From an uncultured Anaerovibrio sp. (GTDB lineage Bacteria > Bacillota > Negativicutes > Selenomonadales > Selenomonadaceae), in assembly GCF_947302755.1 (NCBI RefSeq), contig NZ_CAMYWM010000005.1, positions 1 through 49,931 of the forward strand: a stretch of DNA of 49,931 nt, given 5' to 3'. Below the pieces are notes generated by a model. It did not search any database and was not told the DNA's origin. It saw only the letters and a program-made list of their open reading frames with translations. The position numbers and the translations under genes were made by a program. Positions 32,926 to 46,470 of this stretch are shown here, one piece after another. Every line of letters starts with the position of its first letter. Within the stretch, counting starts at the first letter, position 1.

Positions 32926-33354
32926 ATGGCTACAATAAAGCTAGAGATTGTATCTCCGGATAAGGTGGTTTATTCTGCCGATATTGATATGCTGATTGTC
33001 CGTTCCACTGATGGTGAGCTGGGTATTTTGCCCCACCATGCTCCATTGGTAACCGGTCTGGTGCCCCATGCCATGCGGGTAAAGCTGGAAGGTACCGAGA
33101 AGCTGGTGGCAGTAGGCGGTGGCTTTATGGAGGTTCAGCCGGAAAAAATTTCCGTGTTGGCGTCTGTGGCAGAGCTGCCAGAGGAAATTGATGAAGCCCG
33201 TGCCCGTAAGTCCATGGAGCGTGCCAAGCAGCGTATCCATGATTATAAGGCGGGAGGCGAGGCCAGAGGGGATATTAATCTCCTGCGGGCTGAGGCATCC
33301 CTCCAGCGTGCATTGGCACGGCTTAAGGCTCTTGGAACCAAGGGCGAGGCATAA
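32926..33354 (+). CDS. atpC: ATP synthase subunit epsilon
   Basis: Rotor subunit and inhibitor of ATP hydrolysis. The N-terminal beta-sandwich (IVSPDKVVYSADIDMLIVRSTDGELGILPHHAPLVTGL) is followed by the C-terminal helical hairpin (EIDEARARKSMERAKQRI). 142 aa. It starts 3 nt after the atpD stop and closes the operon. Confidence 0.96.
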   Translation: MATIKLEIVSPDKVVYSADIDMLIVRSTDGELGILPHHAPLVTGLVPHAMRVKLEGTEKLVAVGGGFMEVQPEKISVLASVAELPEEIDEARARKSMERAKQRIHDYKAGGEARGDINLLRAEASLQRALARLKALGTKGEA

Positions 33355-33369
33355 AATGATAATACAGTT

Positions 33370-33397
33370 GGACTGGTCTTCTGACCAGTCCTTTTTT
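33370..33397 (+). terminator. Strong terminator of the ATP synthase operon
   Basis: GGACTGGTC (33370-33378), TTCT loop, GACCAGTCC (33383-33391), then TTTTTT. Perfect 9-bp stem. Confidence 0.92.
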
Positions 33398-33517: not shown

Positions 33518-33590
33518 ATGGAACTCACTGTTGATATAATCAGGAAGTAGGCAGATTGCAGAATAATTGTTATGAAGCTGGGGGGCGGCT
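33518..33590 (+). pseudogene. Out-of-frame remnant of the STAS N-terminus
   Basis: From ATG 33518 (site GAGGTGAAG) the frame reads MELTVDIIRK-TAG-ADCRIIVMKLGG. This is what the first two strands of a STAS domain look like, and it would join RLDANTV of the main ORF if the six-G run at 33580-33585 had one more G. So two lesions separate it: TAG at 33548-33550 and a one-base shift at the G run. Alternatively it is a 10-codon leader peptide ahead of the ORF that begins at TTG 33556. Confidence 0.5.
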
Positions 33591-35121
33591 GGATGCCAAT
33601 ACGGTCAGCTGCTTAAATGAACGGATGGACAGCTTGTCGACGGATTTTGATGAGCTGCATTTTAATTTGTCCAAGCTGAATTATTTGTCATCAGCGGGCC
33701 TGCGTATGGTGCTGGCCGCCCACAAGTGGGCTGATAAGGAAAATATCAAATTTAAGGTGGTCAATCCCAATGCTGATGTCAGCGATGTCTTTGAAATGAC
33801 CGGCTTTAACCGTTTCGTTGATATTATCCATACTGAAGAGGACAGTGAGGATGGCACCATGTCCGACAGTATGGAGGATTTTTACCCGCTGCGGCCAATC
33901 CAGCGGTGGATGCTGGATACTCATTTGCAGAAGGCCAAATCCACCATGATGAATGCCGGAGGTCTGGCTAGATTGGATGATTCCATTGACATGGAGCGAT
34001 TGGCGGATGCCCTTAATGGTACCCTGGCGGCCCATGACATTTTTCGGTGCCGGTTATTGTTTCACCCGGAAACCGGGGATTTGTGCCAACGGTTTGACGG
34101 CAGCCTGTCCAAGGTGCGGCTTGAGACCATGTCCGAGGAGGAATTTCAGCGGCGCAAGCAGGAGCTGAAAAAGCCATATCAGATTATTGACAGGCCCCTG
34201 TTTCGCATTTATTTAATGATTACTCCATCGGGAAAATATCTTTACACTGATTTTTACCATGTGATCATGGATGGTGTGGCGGTGTCCATGCTGTTCTTCC
34301 GGGAGGTGGATCTCCGCTATAGGGGAAAACCGGTTAAGCAGGAGGCCTATAGCTATGCGGAGTATGTTCGTCAGGAGGCGGATAAAGCCAAGGATGAGGC
34401 GGGAATAGCCTACTGGCGCACTATGCTGAAGGATTTTGCGGAGGAAAAGCACCTGCCACCAATTGACAAATCAGATGGAAACTGGAAGTTCGATGCCCAT
34501 TTGGCAACTTTACAAAATATCAGCAAGGATTTTTTCCGGGAAAGCGGGTATGCTGAACAAACCTTTTTAATGGCCGGGGTAATGCTGGCCATGGCCAAGT
34601 CGGCGGGCAGCAGGGAAACTATTATGAGCTATGTGCATAATGGCCGTGCCAACCGAATGGAAATGCGACTTATGGGCCTGATGCTTATCCAAATACCCGT
34701 CCGTTATGACTATAATCGGGATATGACCGTAGATGAGTATATCCATGATTTGGACGCCAAGCTGACTGAGGGCTTCCAATATCGGGACAGCTTAGGGACA
34801 GTCTATAGCGAGGGGCTGGAGGATGATTGCGCCAGCTTTATTTTGCAAAAGGGGAATATCATGGGCAATGCCAGCGGAGAGATTTCATTGTTCGGTACTA
34901 AGGCCGTTATTCAGGATCTGCCGCAAAATAAGGCATCTGCTGTAGAGAATTCTCTGGATATTCATGTTATTATCGAGGATGATGACAGCTATCGCCTGAA
35001 GCTGGAATACGACGCCAGCCGCTATTCTGAGGAGGCTATGGGCAGATTTGCCCAGCTGGTGGATGACATGATGAAGGGCCTGCAGCAAAAGGATAAATCC
35101 GTATTGGAGCTGCTGGCATGA
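33556..35121 (+). CDS. STAS domain fused to an NRPS-type condensation domain
   Basis: The first ~95 residues are a STAS (anti-sigma-factor antagonist, SpoIIAA-like) domain: GRLDANTVSCLNERM, then LNYLSSAGLRMVL, where S46 matches the Ser that is phosphorylated in SpoIIAA-type proteins. From about residue 105 (MEDFYPLRPIQRWML) to the end it is a condensation/acyltransferase-like domain of the NRPS fold with YHVIMDG (H235, D239, G240; the HHxxxDG motif with the first His replaced by Tyr). No adenylation or carrier domain is present. The STAS N-terminal strand is missing in this frame. TTG 33556 does have AGGAAG 8 nt upstream. It overlaps the next gene (ATGA). The biochemical function is unknown. 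A regulated acyl or peptide transfer is one guess. Confidence 0.75.
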   Translation: MQNNCYEAGGRLDANTVSCLNERMDSLSTDFDELHFNLSKLNYLSSAGLRMVLAAHKWADKENIKFKVVNPNADVSDVFEMTGFNRFVDIIHTEEDSEDGTMSDSMEDFYPLRPIQRWMLDTHLQKAKSTMMNAGGLARLDDSIDMERLADALNGTLAAHDIFRCRLLFHPETGDLCQRFDGSLSKVRLETMSEEEFQRRKQELKKPYQIIDRPLFRIYLMITPSGKYLYTDFYHVIMDGVAVSMLFFREVDLRYRGKPVKQEAYSYAEYVRQEADKAKDEAGIAYWRTMLKDFAEEKHLPPIDKSDGNWKFDAHLATLQNISKDFFRESGYAEQTFLMAGVMLAMAKSAGSRETIMSYVHNGRANRMEMRLMGLMLIQIPVRYDYNRDMTVDEYIHDLDAKLTEGFQYRDSLGTVYSEGLEDDCASFILQKGNIMGNASGEISLFGTKAVIQDLPQNKASAVENSLDIHVIIEDDDSYRLKLEYDASRYSEEAMGRFAQLVDDMMKGLQQKDKSVLELLA

Positions 35122-36878
35122 GCTTTTTGTCTGCTTTTCGTCAAAAAACGGTTATATCCAGCCGATTTCGTTCCGTGTTTGTCTCGGCCATGATATCCAT
35201 GACTCTGTCCTACATTCTTATGCTTACGGACAATGTGGTGGCTGGTCAATTTATTGGCGACGAGGCTGTGGCGGCCATGTCCCTGATTTTCCCCTTGGTC
35301 ACCACCCTGTTTTTTATCAGCTATCTTATAGCTGACGGATTAGGTATGATGGCAGCCTACGCCCAGGGCCGGGAGGACCGTCAGGAGGTTAATCGCCTGT
35401 TCAGCCAGGGTATAATTCTGTCTCTGGGCCTGGGTATTGTGCTGGTGGGGCTTTTGCATATATTTCAGGATAGCTTGCTGTCCTATTGGCAGATCTCACC
35501 GGAATATATGGCCCATGCCCGGGGATATTATGATGGGTTGAAATGGCTGCCGCCCATTGTATTTTTCAATATATTTGTGTATACCTTTCTCATACAGGAG
35601 GGGGAGGAGCAGATTTGCCTAAGGGCCTCTGCCATTGCCTTTGTGTCCAATGTGGTGTTGGATATTCTGCTGTGCCAGATATTTGGTACAATGGGTATCG
35701 GCCTGGCTACGGTGCTGGGTACCGGCATATCATGTTTGGTGCAATGCTTTTTCCTGTTTTCCCCCAAAAGCAGGCTGGCTTTTCACTGGTGCCTTAATAT
35801 CAGGCAGATATGCCGAGGGGTGTATCTTAGTTTTTATCATTCCGTGGACACTCTTTTCCTGTCCCTGCTGCCGGTGGTATTGTCCTCCTATGTTATTGCC
35901 CGCTGGGGGGAGAACCATATTATCGTGGTAACGATTATTACCAATATATTGGTGTTGGCCCTGGCCCTGTATACCGGTGTGGTGGATTGCCTGCAGCCTA
36001 TGGTGTGTCAATACCATTCTGAGGGGAGCTTTGGCAGTATTCAAAAGACCATGGATTTGGGGATAGCGCATACGGTGGGCATAAGCCTGGCTGTAGCCTT
36101 GGGGGCCGGTGTTTTTGGGGAGCTTATACCCCTGCTCTTTGGGGTGGAGGATGGCCCCTTGCTTCAGGAGGCGGCGGCCTGTCTGAGAATTTTTTTGTTA
36201 TTTCTGGTATTTTTGGGCACCACCCTCATATACAGCAATTATTATATTTACATTGAGCAGCGCAATTATGGCCTGCTGGTTAAAACCATGCTGCTTATCC
36301 TTTGTCCCGTATTGGGAATGGTTGCAGGAGCCCGCGCCGGTATGGAAGGACTGTGGCTGGGGGTAGGAGCCGGCTATGCCTTGGCGTTTATCCTTAATGC
36401 GTTGGTGGTCAGGCTGTGGTACAGCACCGATAATTTTCTCCTGATCACCCGGGAAATGATGGAGGGCCAGTGCTCCTATGATGTAGATTCCGTCAAGGGG
36501 GAGATCATGGATTTATCCCACCACATTGGAGAATATTTAAGGAAGTGGGAGCTGACATCAGAGCAGCTGCTAAACCTCAGACTGCTGGTGGAGGAAATCG
36601 GTATGCATGCTGTGGAACGGTGCCAGGGGAAGCCCTTTCACATGGAATTCTCCTTTATGCTGAAGCCGGGGAAGCGTAAATCCGTAAAGGTTATTGTGCG
36701 GGATAATGGCAGCCCATATGATATATTAATGGCAGTCAATGGGGGAAAATATACACTGCGGGAATATTTTATTGAGTCAATTACCAATAATTTTCCGGAA
36801 CGCCATTATTTGTCGGCGGGGGATGAAAATAAGCTGGTTTTGGAAGTGAGTCAGCCTATGCCTATTGGGGATATTTAG
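35118..36878 (+). CDS. MATE-family transporter fused to a HATPase-like domain
   Basis: Residues about 15-450 are a polytopic MATE/MatE exporter (twelve hydrophobic segments expected, SYILMLTDNVVAGQFIGDEAVAAMSL). Residues about 460-586 look like a SpoIIAB/RsbW-type histidine-kinase-fold ATPase: helix LLVEEIGMHAVERC (E492/E493, with the Mg-binding Asn of the N box replaced by H497) and VIVRDNGSPYD (D529, G box). The start overlaps the STAS-condensation stop (ATGA), so the two are translationally coupled. Anti-sigma ATPases partner STAS proteins, so the pair may interact through these domains. The exported compound is unknown. ATP binding may be weak because of the Asn loss. Confidence 0.75.
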   Translation: MSFLSAFRQKTVISSRFRSVFVSAMISMTLSYILMLTDNVVAGQFIGDEAVAAMSLIFPLVTTLFFISYLIADGLGMMAAYAQGREDRQEVNRLFSQGIILSLGLGIVLVGLLHIFQDSLLSYWQISPEYMAHARGYYDGLKWLPPIVFFNIFVYTFLIQEGEEQICLRASAIAFVSNVVLDILLCQIFGTMGIGLATVLGTGISCLVQCFFLFSPKSRLAFHWCLNIRQICRGVYLSFYHSVDTLFLSLLPVVLSSYVIARWGENHIIVVTIITNILVLALALYTGVVDCLQPMVCQYHSEGSFGSIQKTMDLGIAHTVGISLAVALGAGVFGELIPLLFGVEDGPLLQEAAACLRIFLLFLVFLGTTLIYSNYYIYIEQRNYGLLVKTMLLILCPVLGMVAGARAGMEGLWLGVGAGYALAFILNALVVRLWYSTDNFLLITREMMEGQCSYDVDSVKGEIMDLSHHIGEYLRKWELTSEQLLNLRLLVEEIGMHAVERCQGKPFHMEFSFMLKPGKRKSVKVIVRDNGSPYDILMAVNGGKYTLREYFIESITNNFPERHYLSAGDENKLVLEVSQPMPIGDI

Positions 36879-36884
36879 CAACAA

Positions 36885-36915
36885 AAAAACAGGAGCTGAA
36901 GGGCTCCTGTTTTCA
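36885..36915. terminator. Bidirectional terminator between convergent genes
   Basis: AAAACAGGAGC (36886-36896) pairs with GCTCCTGTTTT (36903-36913), with A-run and T-run on the two sides. It can serve the MATE gene on + and the small membrane protein gene on -. Confidence 0.88.
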
Positions 36916-42417: not shown

Positions 42418-43080
42418 ATGATAGTTTATGCAACTCATGCCGGCGGCCGGTATTTGCCGGTGGCCGACAGTCTACGGGAGCAGCCGGAGGGCAAACGGAG
42501 TATTTATGTAAATCTTACCAACAGGTGCAACTGTGCCTGTACCTTTTGTCTGCGCAATATGAAGGAAATGGCCGAGGAAAGCAGCCTGTGGCTCAAGGAG
42601 GAGCCTTCGGTGGATGAGGTGAAGTCACTTCTGGATGAGCTTCCCTGGGATAAGGTGTCGGAGATAGTCTTTTGCGGCTTCGGTGAGCCCACCAGCCGTA
42701 TTGATGCAGTGGTGAAGCTTTTAAAATACGTTAAGGACACTCACCCGGAGGTAAAAACCCGCCTTAATACCAACGGCCTGTCTGATCTTATGTACGGACG
42801 CAGTACAGCCAGTGATTTTTCCGGGGGAATTTTGGACACCATTTCCATAAGCCTGAATGCCTCCAATAAGGAACGTTATCTGGAGCTGACCAGGGCCAAA
42901 TACGGTATAGAGTCCTTTGAGGCCATGCTGAAATTTGCTGTGGACTGCAAGGAATATGTTCCTGAGGTGGTCATGACCGTGGTGGAAAAGGTGGAAAATC
43001 AGCAGGAGATAGACCGTTGTCAGAAGCTGTGTGATGAACGGGGATTGCGGCTTCGGGTTCGTATATATGAGGATAGCTAG
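42418..43080 (+). CDS. TatD-associated radical SAM protein
   Basis: Short (220 aa) radical SAM enzyme. The 4Fe-4S motif CX3CX2C is CNCACTFC (C37, C41, C44), followed by FCGFGEPT and the N-terminal NLTNRC. The size and these blocks match the family usually found beside tatD genes. No tatD is in the window. Function unknown. It lies 22 nt after the pyridoxal kinase and 2 nt before the YqeB-like gene, suggesting an operon. Confidence 0.75.
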   Translation: MIVYATHAGGRYLPVADSLREQPEGKRSIYVNLTNRCNCACTFCLRNMKEMAEESSLWLKEEPSVDEVKSLLDELPWDKVSEIVFCGFGEPTSRIDAVVKLLKYVKDTHPEVKTRLNTNGLSDLMYGRSTASDFSGGILDTISISLNASNKERYLELTRAKYGIESFEAMLKFAVDCKEYVPEVVMTVVEKVENQQEIDRCQKLCDERGLRLRVRIYEDS

Positions 43081-43082
43081 AA

Positions 43083-43928
43083 ATGAAACAATTTGTAATG
43101 ATAAGGGGCGGTGGCGAGCTGGCCACCGGTATTGCCCATCGGTTGTATAATTGCGGTTACAAGGTTTTGATGCTGGAGAAGCAGTTTCCCTCAGCCATTC
43201 GCCGGAATATTGTTTTTTCTGAGGCAATTTACGACGGGGAGGCCACGGTGGAACGGGTGACCTGCTATAAGGCGGCTGATGCCAAGGAAGCAGCCAAAAT
43301 GCTGAAGGACGGGAAGCTGGTTATTATGGTGGATCCGGACCTGGAAAGCCTGGATATTTTTAAACCGGAAATATTGGTGGATGCGATTTATGCCAAGCGT
43401 AATCTGGGCACCAATAAAAATATGGCCCCCCTCACCATAGGCATCGGGCCGGGCTTTGTGGCAGGCCAGGATGTTACCTGTGTTATTGAGACGGCCCGAG
43501 GCCACAATCTCGGCCGTATATTGCGGGACGGCATTGCCCTGCCGGAACGGGATACAGCAGAGGCCCGGGCCATTATGCGGGAGTCCCATTCCATAAATTC
43601 CCCCTGTGATGGTTATTTGGAGGCGGGGCATCCCACTGCTTATGTAATAGACAAGGATGAGCTCATTGGACGGCTCCACGTGGAAGGCGGCCATGTAATG
43701 GATATAAGGACGCCAATTGCCGGTGTCTTGCGGGGCATGCTGCACGATGATTGTCCGGTACGGACCGGGCTGAAGATTGCGGAGATTGACCCAAGCACCA
43801 AGCCGGCCAACTGCATAAGTATTTCAGCCAAGACCAGGTGCGTGTCCGGCTCCGTGCTGGAGGTTATTGTGGGGTGGGAGCATACTAACGTGAAGAAGTC
43901 ACGGCTGCTGCCATGGAAGAAGAAATGA
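43083..43928 (+). CDS. yqeB: YqeB/EF2563-like selenium-dependent molybdenum hydroxylase accessory protein
   Basis: 281 aa. N-terminal Rossmann-like start FVMIRGGGELATGIAHRLYNCGYKVLMLE, then AIRRNIVFSEAIYDG, TIGIGPGFVAGQDVTCVIETARGHNLG, and INSPCDGYLE. This is the pattern of YqeB proteins, which are tied to selenium-dependent molybdenum hydroxylases. No xdh, ygfK, yqeC or selD gene is nearby, so the partner system must lie elsewhere or be absent. The start lies 2 nt after the preceding stop. Confidence 0.75.
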   Translation: MKQFVMIRGGGELATGIAHRLYNCGYKVLMLEKQFPSAIRRNIVFSEAIYDGEATVERVTCYKAADAKEAAKMLKDGKLVIMVDPDLESLDIFKPEILVDAIYAKRNLGTNKNMAPLTIGIGPGFVAGQDVTCVIETARGHNLGRILRDGIALPERDTAEARAIMRESHSINSPCDGYLEAGHPTAYVIDKDELIGRLHVEGGHVMDIRTPIAGVLRGMLHDDCPVRTGLKIAEIDPSTKPANCISISAKTRCVSGSVLEVIVGWEHTNVKKSRLLPWKKK

Positions 43929-45279: not shown

Positions 45280-46470
45280 ATGATTAGTGTTACAAAGTTA
45301 TTATTTAAGCGGGAATATTATGGTGATTCCCTGCGTTATACCAAGGGGGCCCATGCCCAGAAAAACGGTGCCGGCGAGGGTATGGGACCGGTGGTGGTGT
45401 GGAATTCCACCAAGACCTGTAATTTAAAATGCCGCCATTGTTACATGAGCTCGGATAATAAAAAATATCAAAATGAGCTTACCACTGAGGAGGCCAAGAG
45501 CTTTATTGATGATTTGGCGGATTTCCGGGTTCCTGTACTGTTATTTTCCGGCGGCGAACCACTTATTCGCCCTGATTTTTTTGAGCTGGCAGAATACGCC
45601 CAGAAGAAGGGGGTTCGCCCCACCCTTTCCACCAACGGTACCCTTATAACCCGTGAGGTGGCCCAGCGTATCAAGGACATCGGGGTGGGCTATGTGGGGA
45701 TTTCCCTGGATGGCTTAAAGGATGTAAATGATAAATTCCGTGGGGTTGACGGGGCCTATGAAAAGGCAATGCAGGGGATTCAGAACTGTGTGGCGGTAGG
45801 CCAGCGTGTAGGCCTTCGCTTTACCATAAATCATCACAATATTCAGGAGCTGGATAATATTTTCGATTTTATTGAGCGTGAAAATATTAACCGGGTATGC
45901 TTCTATCATCTCGTGTATTCCGGCCGGGGCAATGCCATGATGGATGAGGATGTGACTCCGGAGGAATCCCGTGGGGCCATGGATATCATTATCCGCCGCA
46001 CCAGGGATTTTGAGGAACGGGGCTTGGAGAAGGAAATTCTCACTGTGGATAACCACTGTGATGGTGTGTACATGTACCTGAAGGCACTGGCGGCAGGCGA
46101 TGACCAGCTGGCGGCCCAGATAAAGGAATTTATATCCATGAATGGCGGCAACCGCTCCGGCATTGCCTTCGGTGAGGTGGATCCCTTTGGTTACGTTCAC
46201 CCTGACCAGTTTACCCAGCATCATACCTTTGGTAATGTGCGTGATAGGAAATTCAGCGAAATCTGGACCGATACTGGTCATCCGATAATGGCCGGTCTGA
46301 AGGATAGAAAGCCTCTCTTAAAGGGACGCTGCAGCAGGTGCAAATTCCTTGATAATTGCAACGGAAATTTCAGAACCCGTGCAGAGGCCCGTACCGGGGA
46401 TTTCTGGGAATCTGATCCTGCCTGCTACCTTACGGATGAAGAAATTGGCCTTAGCGGAGGTAATAAATAA
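45280..46470 (+). CDS. ahbC: AhbC/NirJ1-like radical SAM protein (heme pathway)
   Basis: Likely removes the acetate side chains of 12,18-didecarboxysiroheme to give Fe-coproporphyrin III in the siroheme-dependent heme pathway. The radical SAM CX3CX2C is CNLKCRHC (C47, C51, C54), with LLFSGGEPLIRPDFF, GISLDGL and a C-terminal SPASM-like Cys cluster (CSRCKFLDNCNG). 396 aa, as in the NirJ1 group. AGGTGATGG precedes ATG 45280. The stop overlaps the next start by one base. Identification as NirJ1/AhbC relies on its pairing with the gene that follows. Related SPASM enzymes have other substrates. Confidence 0.8.
   Translation: MISVTKLLFKREYYGDSLRYTKGAHAQKNGAGEGMGPVVVWNSTKTCNLKCRHCYMSSDNKKYQNELTTEEAKSFIDDLADFRVPVLLFSGGEPLIRPDFFELAEYAQKKGVRPTLSTNGTLITREVAQRIKDIGVGYVGISLDGLKDVNDKFRGVDGAYEKAMQGIQNCVAVGQRVGLRFTINHHNIQELDNIFDFIERENINRVCFYHLVYSGRGNAMMDEDVTPEESRGAMDIIIRRTRDFEERGLEKEILTVDNHCDGVYMYLKALAAGDDQLAAQIKEFISMNGGNRSGIAFGEVDPFGYVHPDQFTQHHTFGNVRDRKFSEIWTDTGHPIMAGLKDRKPLLKGRCSRCKFLDNCNGNFRTRAEARTGDFWESDPACYLTDEEIGLSGGNK

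Follow-up and report, generated by a model that had tools for sequence, protein, structure and literature searches.

Partner switching is known mainly as a means of controlling sigma factors, a few outputs in secretion and biofilm formation apart, and RsbW and SpoIIAB are anti-sigma factors. The described systems closest to the locus considered here are RsbU-RsbV-RsbW and SpoIIE-SpoIIAA-SpoIIAB of Bacillus, which share with it a STAS protein with a conserved Ser and a partner of the GHKL fold, and with its relatives a SpoIIE-type phosphatase, and which provide the best matches in both sequence and structure; here, however, the STAS domain is fused to a condensation enzyme, and a MATE exporter bears the RsbW-like domain. 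Outputs other than a simple sigma factor have been described for BtrU/V/W (Bordetella type III secretion), which acts on a secretion process, and for SypE/SypA (Vibrio fischeri biofilm), although the sections of the review on which we draw cover stand-alone STAS proteins and mention none that is joined to an exporter or a biosynthetic enzyme (PMC8256260). SulP/SLC26 transporters with a STAS tail also bear one half of a STAS/HATPase pair, but the STAS domain is on the transporter there and the opposite partner is on it here. A SulP-STAS protein is present in L290. No earlier description of a STAS-condensation (STAS-C)/MATE-HATPase system was found in the open-access papers searched, and the suggestion of a sequence-only reading that the system is undescribed holds to that extent only.

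The stretch of DNA that we have analyzed, referred to in what follows as the window, comprises 49,931 nucleotides from an uncultured Anaerovibrio sp., and all features below are given on its + strand. Two genes, the 3' end of the first overlapping the start of the second by 4 bases, encode a STAS-C protein of 521 residues whose N-terminus is truncated in this copy (33556-35121) and a 586-residue MATE exporter with a C-terminal HATPase domain (35118-36878; Pfam MatE, 1.6e-26). The first protein had been read as a fusion of STAS and NRPS-like condensation domains with the active HxxxDG motif kept, and this is borne out by Pfam matches to STAS (E=1.4e-11, residues 6-96) and Condensation (E=2.6e-39, residues 107-509, corresponding to 33874-35082) as well as by the catalytic motif itself, H235-V-I-M-D239-G240 (34258-34275), in which H, D and G do not vary among the 33 STAS-C proteins compared. 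Identity to intact orthologues amounts to 68-71%. The best PDB sequence match of the condensation (C) domain is bacitracin synthase 3 (9rde), and in its fold the orthologue of A. lipolyticus matches C domains of NRPSs, among them that of Txo2 (6p1j, Foldseek 5e-25). Fold and motif are thus those of NRPS condensation domains, including stand-alone ones, from which the present protein differs in its N-terminal STAS domain and in that the unit of the window is devoid of A and T domains, while an A-T-C gene adjoins in Succiniclasticum and Selenomonas. The STAS half matches RsbV (6m36_B) and SpoIIAA (1th8_B); Ser46 (codon 33691-33693), the S59 of the family alignment that is found in 33/33 STAS-C proteins, occupies what we take to be the position of the phosphorylatable Ser of RsbV/SpoIIAA.

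The second protein scores 93 bits against MatE (Pfam cut-off 24.9), in two stretches, as expected of an exporter with a pair of MatE repeats in a membrane part of about 400 residues, though it remains below the NCBIfam matE cut-off (TIGR00797, 108.4 vs 147.4). HATPase_c_2 is matched with E=0.01 only, under the Pfam cut-off, and a chance match was considered; it is ruled out by a family profile of the domain, for which RsbW (6m36_A) is the first match (4.2e-5) and SpoIIAB the next, including 1th8_A among the structures matched, and by the predicted fold. An AlphaFold model of residues 423-586 (pLDDT 83) gives Foldseek top matches that include SpoIIAB 1tid_A (5.8e-8) and RsbW 6m37_C (5.4e-7), the SpoIIAB and RsbW structures found in this way being mostly complexed with STAS partners. 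The domain of SpoIIAB/RsbW fold extends over 36435-36845, so that the earlier description of a MATE exporter with an RsbW/SpoIIAB-like ATPase domain, which had been made to depend on the fold, survives modeling of the HATPase part. MatE is shared with the MATE family at large and the SpoIIAB-like C-terminal domain sets this protein apart; as routine annotation would show a plain MATE, the MATE-HATPase architecture provides a handle for searches.

The STAS and HATPase halves match both partners of the same solved complexes (6m36 and 1th8), which supports the proposal, held by us with moderate confidence, that the pair forms the heart of a modular system of rumen anaerobes in which partner-switch domains wire synthesis to export and docking is controlled by a sensor. 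The STAS domain is borne by the condensation enzyme, whose place is taken in sister operons by a different biosynthetic enzyme, and the RsbW/SpoIIAB-like tail by the MATE, presumably the exporter of the product. In the most likely mechanism a SpoIIE phosphatase with a membrane sensor (dCache-HAMP), encoded upstream in full operons, would act together with a kinase to determine whether the STAS serine is phosphorylated; once dephosphorylated, the STAS domain would dock on the exporter's HATPase domain and either bring enzyme and product to the exporter or open it. The domains, their folds, the pairing of the genes, the make-up of the operons, the conserved serine and catalytic residues and the recurrence with other enzymes are observed, and from these we infer that STAS binds HATPase and is phosphorylated, how transport would be affected, and that there is a product. 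Because both halves of the putative switch are built into an enzyme and an exporter, regulated docking is directly testable with two proteins.

In a survey of genomes a MATE gene was the direct neighbor of 19 out of 32 STAS-C genes and was separated by a single NRPS gene from another 12, which makes 31 in all, the locus of the 32nd being cut by a contig end, so that the MATE neighbors STAS-C nearly everywhere STAS-C occurs and the pairing does not turn out to be rare, as it might have. The great majority of the hosts belong to the Negativicutes and Lachnospiraceae of the rumen. In Schwartzia, Succiniclasticum and Selenomonas the unit is immediately preceded by a gene for a dCache-HAMP-SpoIIE phosphatase, and in the latter two a fuller operon encodes this phosphatase, STAS-C, an A-T-C NRPS and MATE-HATPase. 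SpoIIE phosphatases and carrier proteins had both been anticipated as neighbors and are both found in relatives, the adenylation/carrier (A-T-C) genes between the members of the pair; neither adjoins the pair in the window, where RND and DUF6056 genes, located downstream in relatives, are absent as well. Elsewhere in the window genome there are 9 SpoIIE matches and another NRPS (L062), with no adenylation/carrier gene next to the pair. Naming a product from the pocket residues of the A domains was judged too rough, as these residues were taken via motif anchors, and anti-phage defense was set aside after the PADLOC models matched none of seven proteins encoded in these operons.

The enzyme varies between operons. 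In paralogous operons the MATE-HATPase is kept and STAS-APH, GT2-GH3 or A-T-C is found in place of the enzyme, and in sister operons STAS is fused to an APH-type kinase beside MATE-HATPase or is encoded separately beside an NRPS or GH3. A wider view that we put forward tentatively is that partner-switch domains would act as a signal-controlled plug and socket assembling biosynthetic enzymes on their own exporter, a general design whose parts (NRPS, GH3/GT2, APH kinases) can be exchanged. It would be used by Negativicutes and Lachnospiraceae of the rumen and would give partner switching a new class of output without a transcription step. The separate STAS genes of ∼105 aa beside NRPS and MATE-HATPase in several operons (L286, L288; compare L065) show that the pairing does not require a tethered enzyme, and they favor a scheme in which the HATPase tail is a valve of the exporter that is opened or closed by STAS, free or on an enzyme, the fusion to the C domain serving merely co-expression or the sensing of enzyme abundance and synthesis not being tethered to export. 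The repeated fusion of STAS to an enzyme (C or APH) and of HATPase to the exporter is, however, an economical tether, and we consider gating by itself unlikely.

It might also be argued that domains have been shuffled by chance and that the two proteins are functionally uncoupled, since Quinella-type loci have C and MATE-HATPase without STAS and three Lachnospiraceae loci (L132, L154, L155) have STAS-C beside a MATE that lacks the HATPase domain. A reverse survey with the HATPase domain alone as query, a neighborhood of 5 genes and 19 plain MATEs as controls bears on this point. A STAS gene is present within 5 genes in 18/41 MATE-HATPase loci and near 0/19 plain MATEs (Fisher p=2e-4, genome relatedness ignored), a biosynthetic enzyme near 31/41 and 0/19, respectively (Fisher p=1e-8, again ignoring relatedness), and SpoIIE near 7/41 and 0/19; in the remaining 23 of the 41 loci STAS is absent from this neighborhood, and these, like the Quinella-type loci and the three Lachnospiraceae loci, weigh against the docking proposal as well. 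With the controls free of STAS and the pairing seen in several families and combined with more than one kind of enzyme, an uncoupled pair is very improbable. The loci described by the preferred docking proposal mark an extensive set of operons for small molecules in rumen bacteria that is apparently undescribed, and their dCache sensors might report what the cells sense.

A further difference from the Bacillus systems is that the N-box Asn, a Mg-binding residue, is often missing. It is replaced by His497 in the window (36606-36608), for which reason kinase activity of this HATPase is doubtful, and is retained in A. lipolyticus; among 95 family members Asn is found in 38 and His in 16, and it is kept in only 5/26 MATE-HATPases with SpoIIE nearby. 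These tails may therefore not be kinases, to judge by their motifs. The Ser-kinase/ATP motif set (N-box Glu and Asn, G1 Asp) is incomplete in the window domain, and in much of the STAS-C clade Asn has given way to His, Val or Leu and the G2 Gly is lost. Such changes favor a reading in which the HATPase of this clade is without Mg/ATP chemistry and is a fixed scaffold or vestigial, the window pair being in decay, as do the occurrence of MATE-HATPase without STAS-C in G004 and the missing RND and DUF6056 genes of the window. Against this, the N-box Glu (89/95) and G1 Asp (86/95) are conserved across MATE-HATPases, both also in the window, and the STAS Ser is invariant; we regard lost signaling as rather unlikely. 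Classical switching driven by phosphorylation by this domain is nevertheless doubtful, since its kinase residues are gone or on the way out in the clade.

As RsbW and SpoIIAB hold sigma factors, the MATE tail could in principle be a membrane anti-sigma factor from which STAS-C releases its target, tying transcription to biosynthesis. No sigma-B/F/G factor was found above the curated TIGR02980 cut-off in 12 genomes, a contrast to the Bacillus systems on which a sigma-factor output was rejected; the output is therefore probably not a sigma factor and this scheme is extremely unlikely. The earlier idea that partner switching couples synthesis to export gains from the partner genes of relatives and loses from the broken STAS of the window and from kinase residues that are lost or being lost.

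Alignment with five relatives places the homologous start of STAS-C at ATG 33518, from where ten codons lead to a TAG at 33548-33550 (remnant of the true 5' end, 33518-33550), followed by a change of frame in a G-run near 33580. The first STAS strands are therefore lost in the window copy. The alignment rules out TTG 33556 as the true start and indicates that it is a by-product of the damage. The N-terminus is intact in the other 32 STAS-C proteins compared, and the intact A. lipolyticus STAS passes the NCBIfam TIGR00377 cut-off of 53.45 with 61.0, while that of the window, at 49.4, stays below. With its N-terminus broken, the N-box Asn lost and the downstream RND/DUF6056 genes missing the window copy is probably impaired. 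The broken N-terminus is in keeping with decay of the pair; faster decay of the remaining STAS-C is, however, not seen, the identity of its C domain to an outgroup being normal (54.7%, relatives 54.0-55.0%), and this speaks against the reading of lost signaling.

The unit had been placed directly after a strong terminator and looked like an accessory insertion, and both statements agree with what is found. The atpC gene ends at 33354 and just 3' of it lies the Rho-independent terminator of the atp operon, a 9-bp GC-rich stem followed by TTTTTT (33370-33391), which forms the upstream boundary. In four relatives with the closest atpC (G007, G012, G013, G015; 91-96% identity) a DUF2975-like gene directly follows atpC, whereas in the window this gene is downstream of the pair; these empty sites support the reading of the window unit as an insertion or accessory element. 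A 12-bp hairpin at 36886-36913, 3' of the pair, is a probable terminator on both strands.

The plus-strand ORF at 33556-35121 has domain matches to a STAS domain and an NRPS condensation (C) domain (STAS-C), and the ORF at 35118-36878, overlapping it by 4 bases, to a MATE transporter whose C-terminus carries a HATPase-like domain. Because the Pfam HATPase score is weak (E=0.01) we have examined this tail separately by profile and predicted fold. A profile made from 28 tails places RsbW (6m36_A) first and SpoIIAB second in the PDB, and an AlphaFold model of the window's tail (pLDDT 83) matches SpoIIAB (1tid, 1th8, 1til), RsbW (6m36/6m37) and UsfX (8ih8), mostly crystals of complexes with STAS partners. 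The STAS part of the STAS-C orthologue family matches SpoIIAA and RsbV from those same crystals, and for the Anaerovibrio lipolyticus orthologue the predicted fold matches NRPS C domains. All 33 STAS-C proteins compared keep the catalytic H and the DG of the HxxxDG motif, and likewise the Ser aligned to the phosphorylatable Ser of RsbV/SpoIIAA.

The window's own STAS-C gene is damaged at its start. The homologous ATG of relatives aligns with position 33518, from which the window frame runs ten codons to a TAG at 33548-33550, and a frame change follows in a G-run near 33580. The TTG at 33556 is thus, on this alignment, best read as a by-product of the damage and not the original start, and the product predicted from it would be without the first STAS strands; fittingly, the window STAS scores under the NCBIfam antagonist cut-off, which an intact orthologue exceeds. 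Two lesions within ∼60 bases would be more than a single sequencing slip, and the remainder of the frame is open with no fast evolution. The window (G000:C5) belongs to an incomplete genome of 2.66 Mb in 214 contigs, and its host is most likely an uncultured Anaerovibrio from the rumen, with genus-mates that include A. lipolyticus, Anaerovibrio sp. RM50 and Anaerovibrio sp. JC8.

Four relatives with an atpC 91-96% identical to the window's (G007, G012, G013, G015) carry a DUF2975-like gene and a DhaR-like regulator gene directly after atpC, two genes which the window has on the far side of the pair; in G012, G013 and G015 the unit is present elsewhere in the genome. Two further genomes (G008, G004) have the unit at the window's site, with an RND pump (assigned by NCBIfam) and two DUF6056 proteins (assigned by Pfam) after MATE-HATPase, the G004 unit being without STAS-C; the window unit has neither RND nor DUF6056. 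Since the pair is absent after atpC in the four relatives and its location varies by species, the unit is accessory, as the sequence-only reading had proposed. Most Anaerovibrio units have an RND permease and two DUF6056 membrane proteins after MATE-HATPase (locus L055, 2570-8670; equivalents in L059, L066, L067 and L068), and in S. ruminantium such genes lie upstream of STAS-C.

Scanning 85,462 species genomes with the STAS-C alignment gave 65 loci, nearly all from Negativicutes and Lachnospiraceae and, going by record titles, of ruminant origin in most cases. With genes in relatives called mechanically as longest non-overlapping ORFs, MATE directly follows 19 of 32 STAS-C genes and is separated by one NRPS gene in 12/32; in 1/32 a contig end cuts the locus. 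Three Lachnospiraceae STAS-C loci have a MATE without HATPase, and at Quinella-type loci the C domain carries no STAS; several of these C genes adjoin a MATE-HATPase that is without the G2 motif. In Lachnospiraceae bacterium MA2020 BMC-domain (microcompartment shell) genes lie just upstream of the STAS-C operon (L155, 8421-9616). Fuller operons are found in Succiniclasticum and Selenomonas strain S137, in the order dCache-HAMP-SpoIIE, STAS-C, A-T-C NRPS (about 1210 aa; adenylation-carrier-condensation), MATE-HATPase, and in Schwartzia, in the order SpoIIE, STAS-C, MATE-HATPase. Judged from their predicted domains, the full operons hold all three partner-switch components, an assembly line and an exporter.

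A search with the tail only gave matches in 114/189 Selenomonadaceae genomes. Within five genes of MATE-HATPase, in 41 loci fully read, we find STAS in 18, SpoIIE in 7 and a biosynthetic enzyme in 31, as against 0/19 for each around control MATEs without the tail, which were picked from matches of one search (Fisher p=2.4e-4 for STAS and 1e-8 for enzymes, uncorrected for the relatedness of the genomes, some contigs of which are short). Domain calls for these loci, the sister operons and the Lachnospiraceae loci come from purpose-built profiles, with a Pfam check on selected proteins only. The enzymes vary. Two A-T-C genes and a STAS-APH accompany MATE-HATPase in L051 and L166; the operon (L051 4886-18698, L166, L185) further includes an A-T gene and a ∼460-aa protein with zero Pfam or NCBIfam matches. 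A GT2-GH3 fusion adjoins MATE-HATPase in L052 (7246-12806), L053 (5232-12194), L173, L178 and L180, with STAS-APH in the first three; the match of its APH part to NCBIfam TIGR02172 falls under cut-off. An ATP-grasp ligase lies next to a MATE with a divergent tail in L057 (5440-8711) and L070 (7392-10859), with no STAS nearby. In the family to which Lachnospiraceae bacterium MA2020 belongs, 200 genomes searched again show tails commonly on proteins of about 600 aa. Their neighbours include SpoIIE, STAS as a gene of its own, a PPTase and NRPSs of 3000 aa in L286, L288 and L291, with GH3 instead of the NRPS in L281. A second conserved Anaerovibrio operon (L065 on G015:C6, L054 on G008:C9 and L062 on contig C89 of the window genome) has a stand-alone STAS, a 2030-2040-aa NRPS of two A-T-C modules, a MATE without HATPase and a dCache-HAMP-SpoIIE phosphatase.

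With domains, folds, pairing, operon parts and the conserved Ser and catalytic residues established, we infer that the enzyme-borne STAS domain would dock on the exporter's tail, with the sensor-phosphatase setting the timing. Docking could gate the pump, channel the product or do both. In RsbW/SpoIIAB the N-box Asn is required for Mg-ATP. The kinase may thus be a protein other than the tail, because this Asn is retained in only 38/95 tails and in 5/26 of those with SpoIIE nearby; the N-box Glu is retained in 89/95 and the G1 Asp in 86/95. STAS could be phosphorylated by RsbW-like proteins that these loci encode separately, or by their fusions of SpoIIE with HATPase (L205, L281, L284, L286). 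A sigma-factor output appears unlikely, since 12 genomes yield no sigma-B/F/G member above cut-off.

Partner switching with outputs beyond a simple sigma switch is described, in PMC8256260, for BtrU/V/W and SypE/A, and the kind of system is therefore already known. The open-access literature searched gave no paper in which one partner is fused to a biosynthetic enzyme and the other to the enzyme's exporter, and we set the pair apart from sigma-type partner switching.

Elsewhere in the window, a YqeB selenium-dependent molybdenum cofactor protein (43083-43925; TIGR03309, above cut-off) lies beside a TatD-linked radical SAM protein (42418-43077), and a NirJ1-type radical SAM protein (45280-46467; TIGR04054, above cut-off) is putatively involved in heme d1 or related haem biosynthesis.
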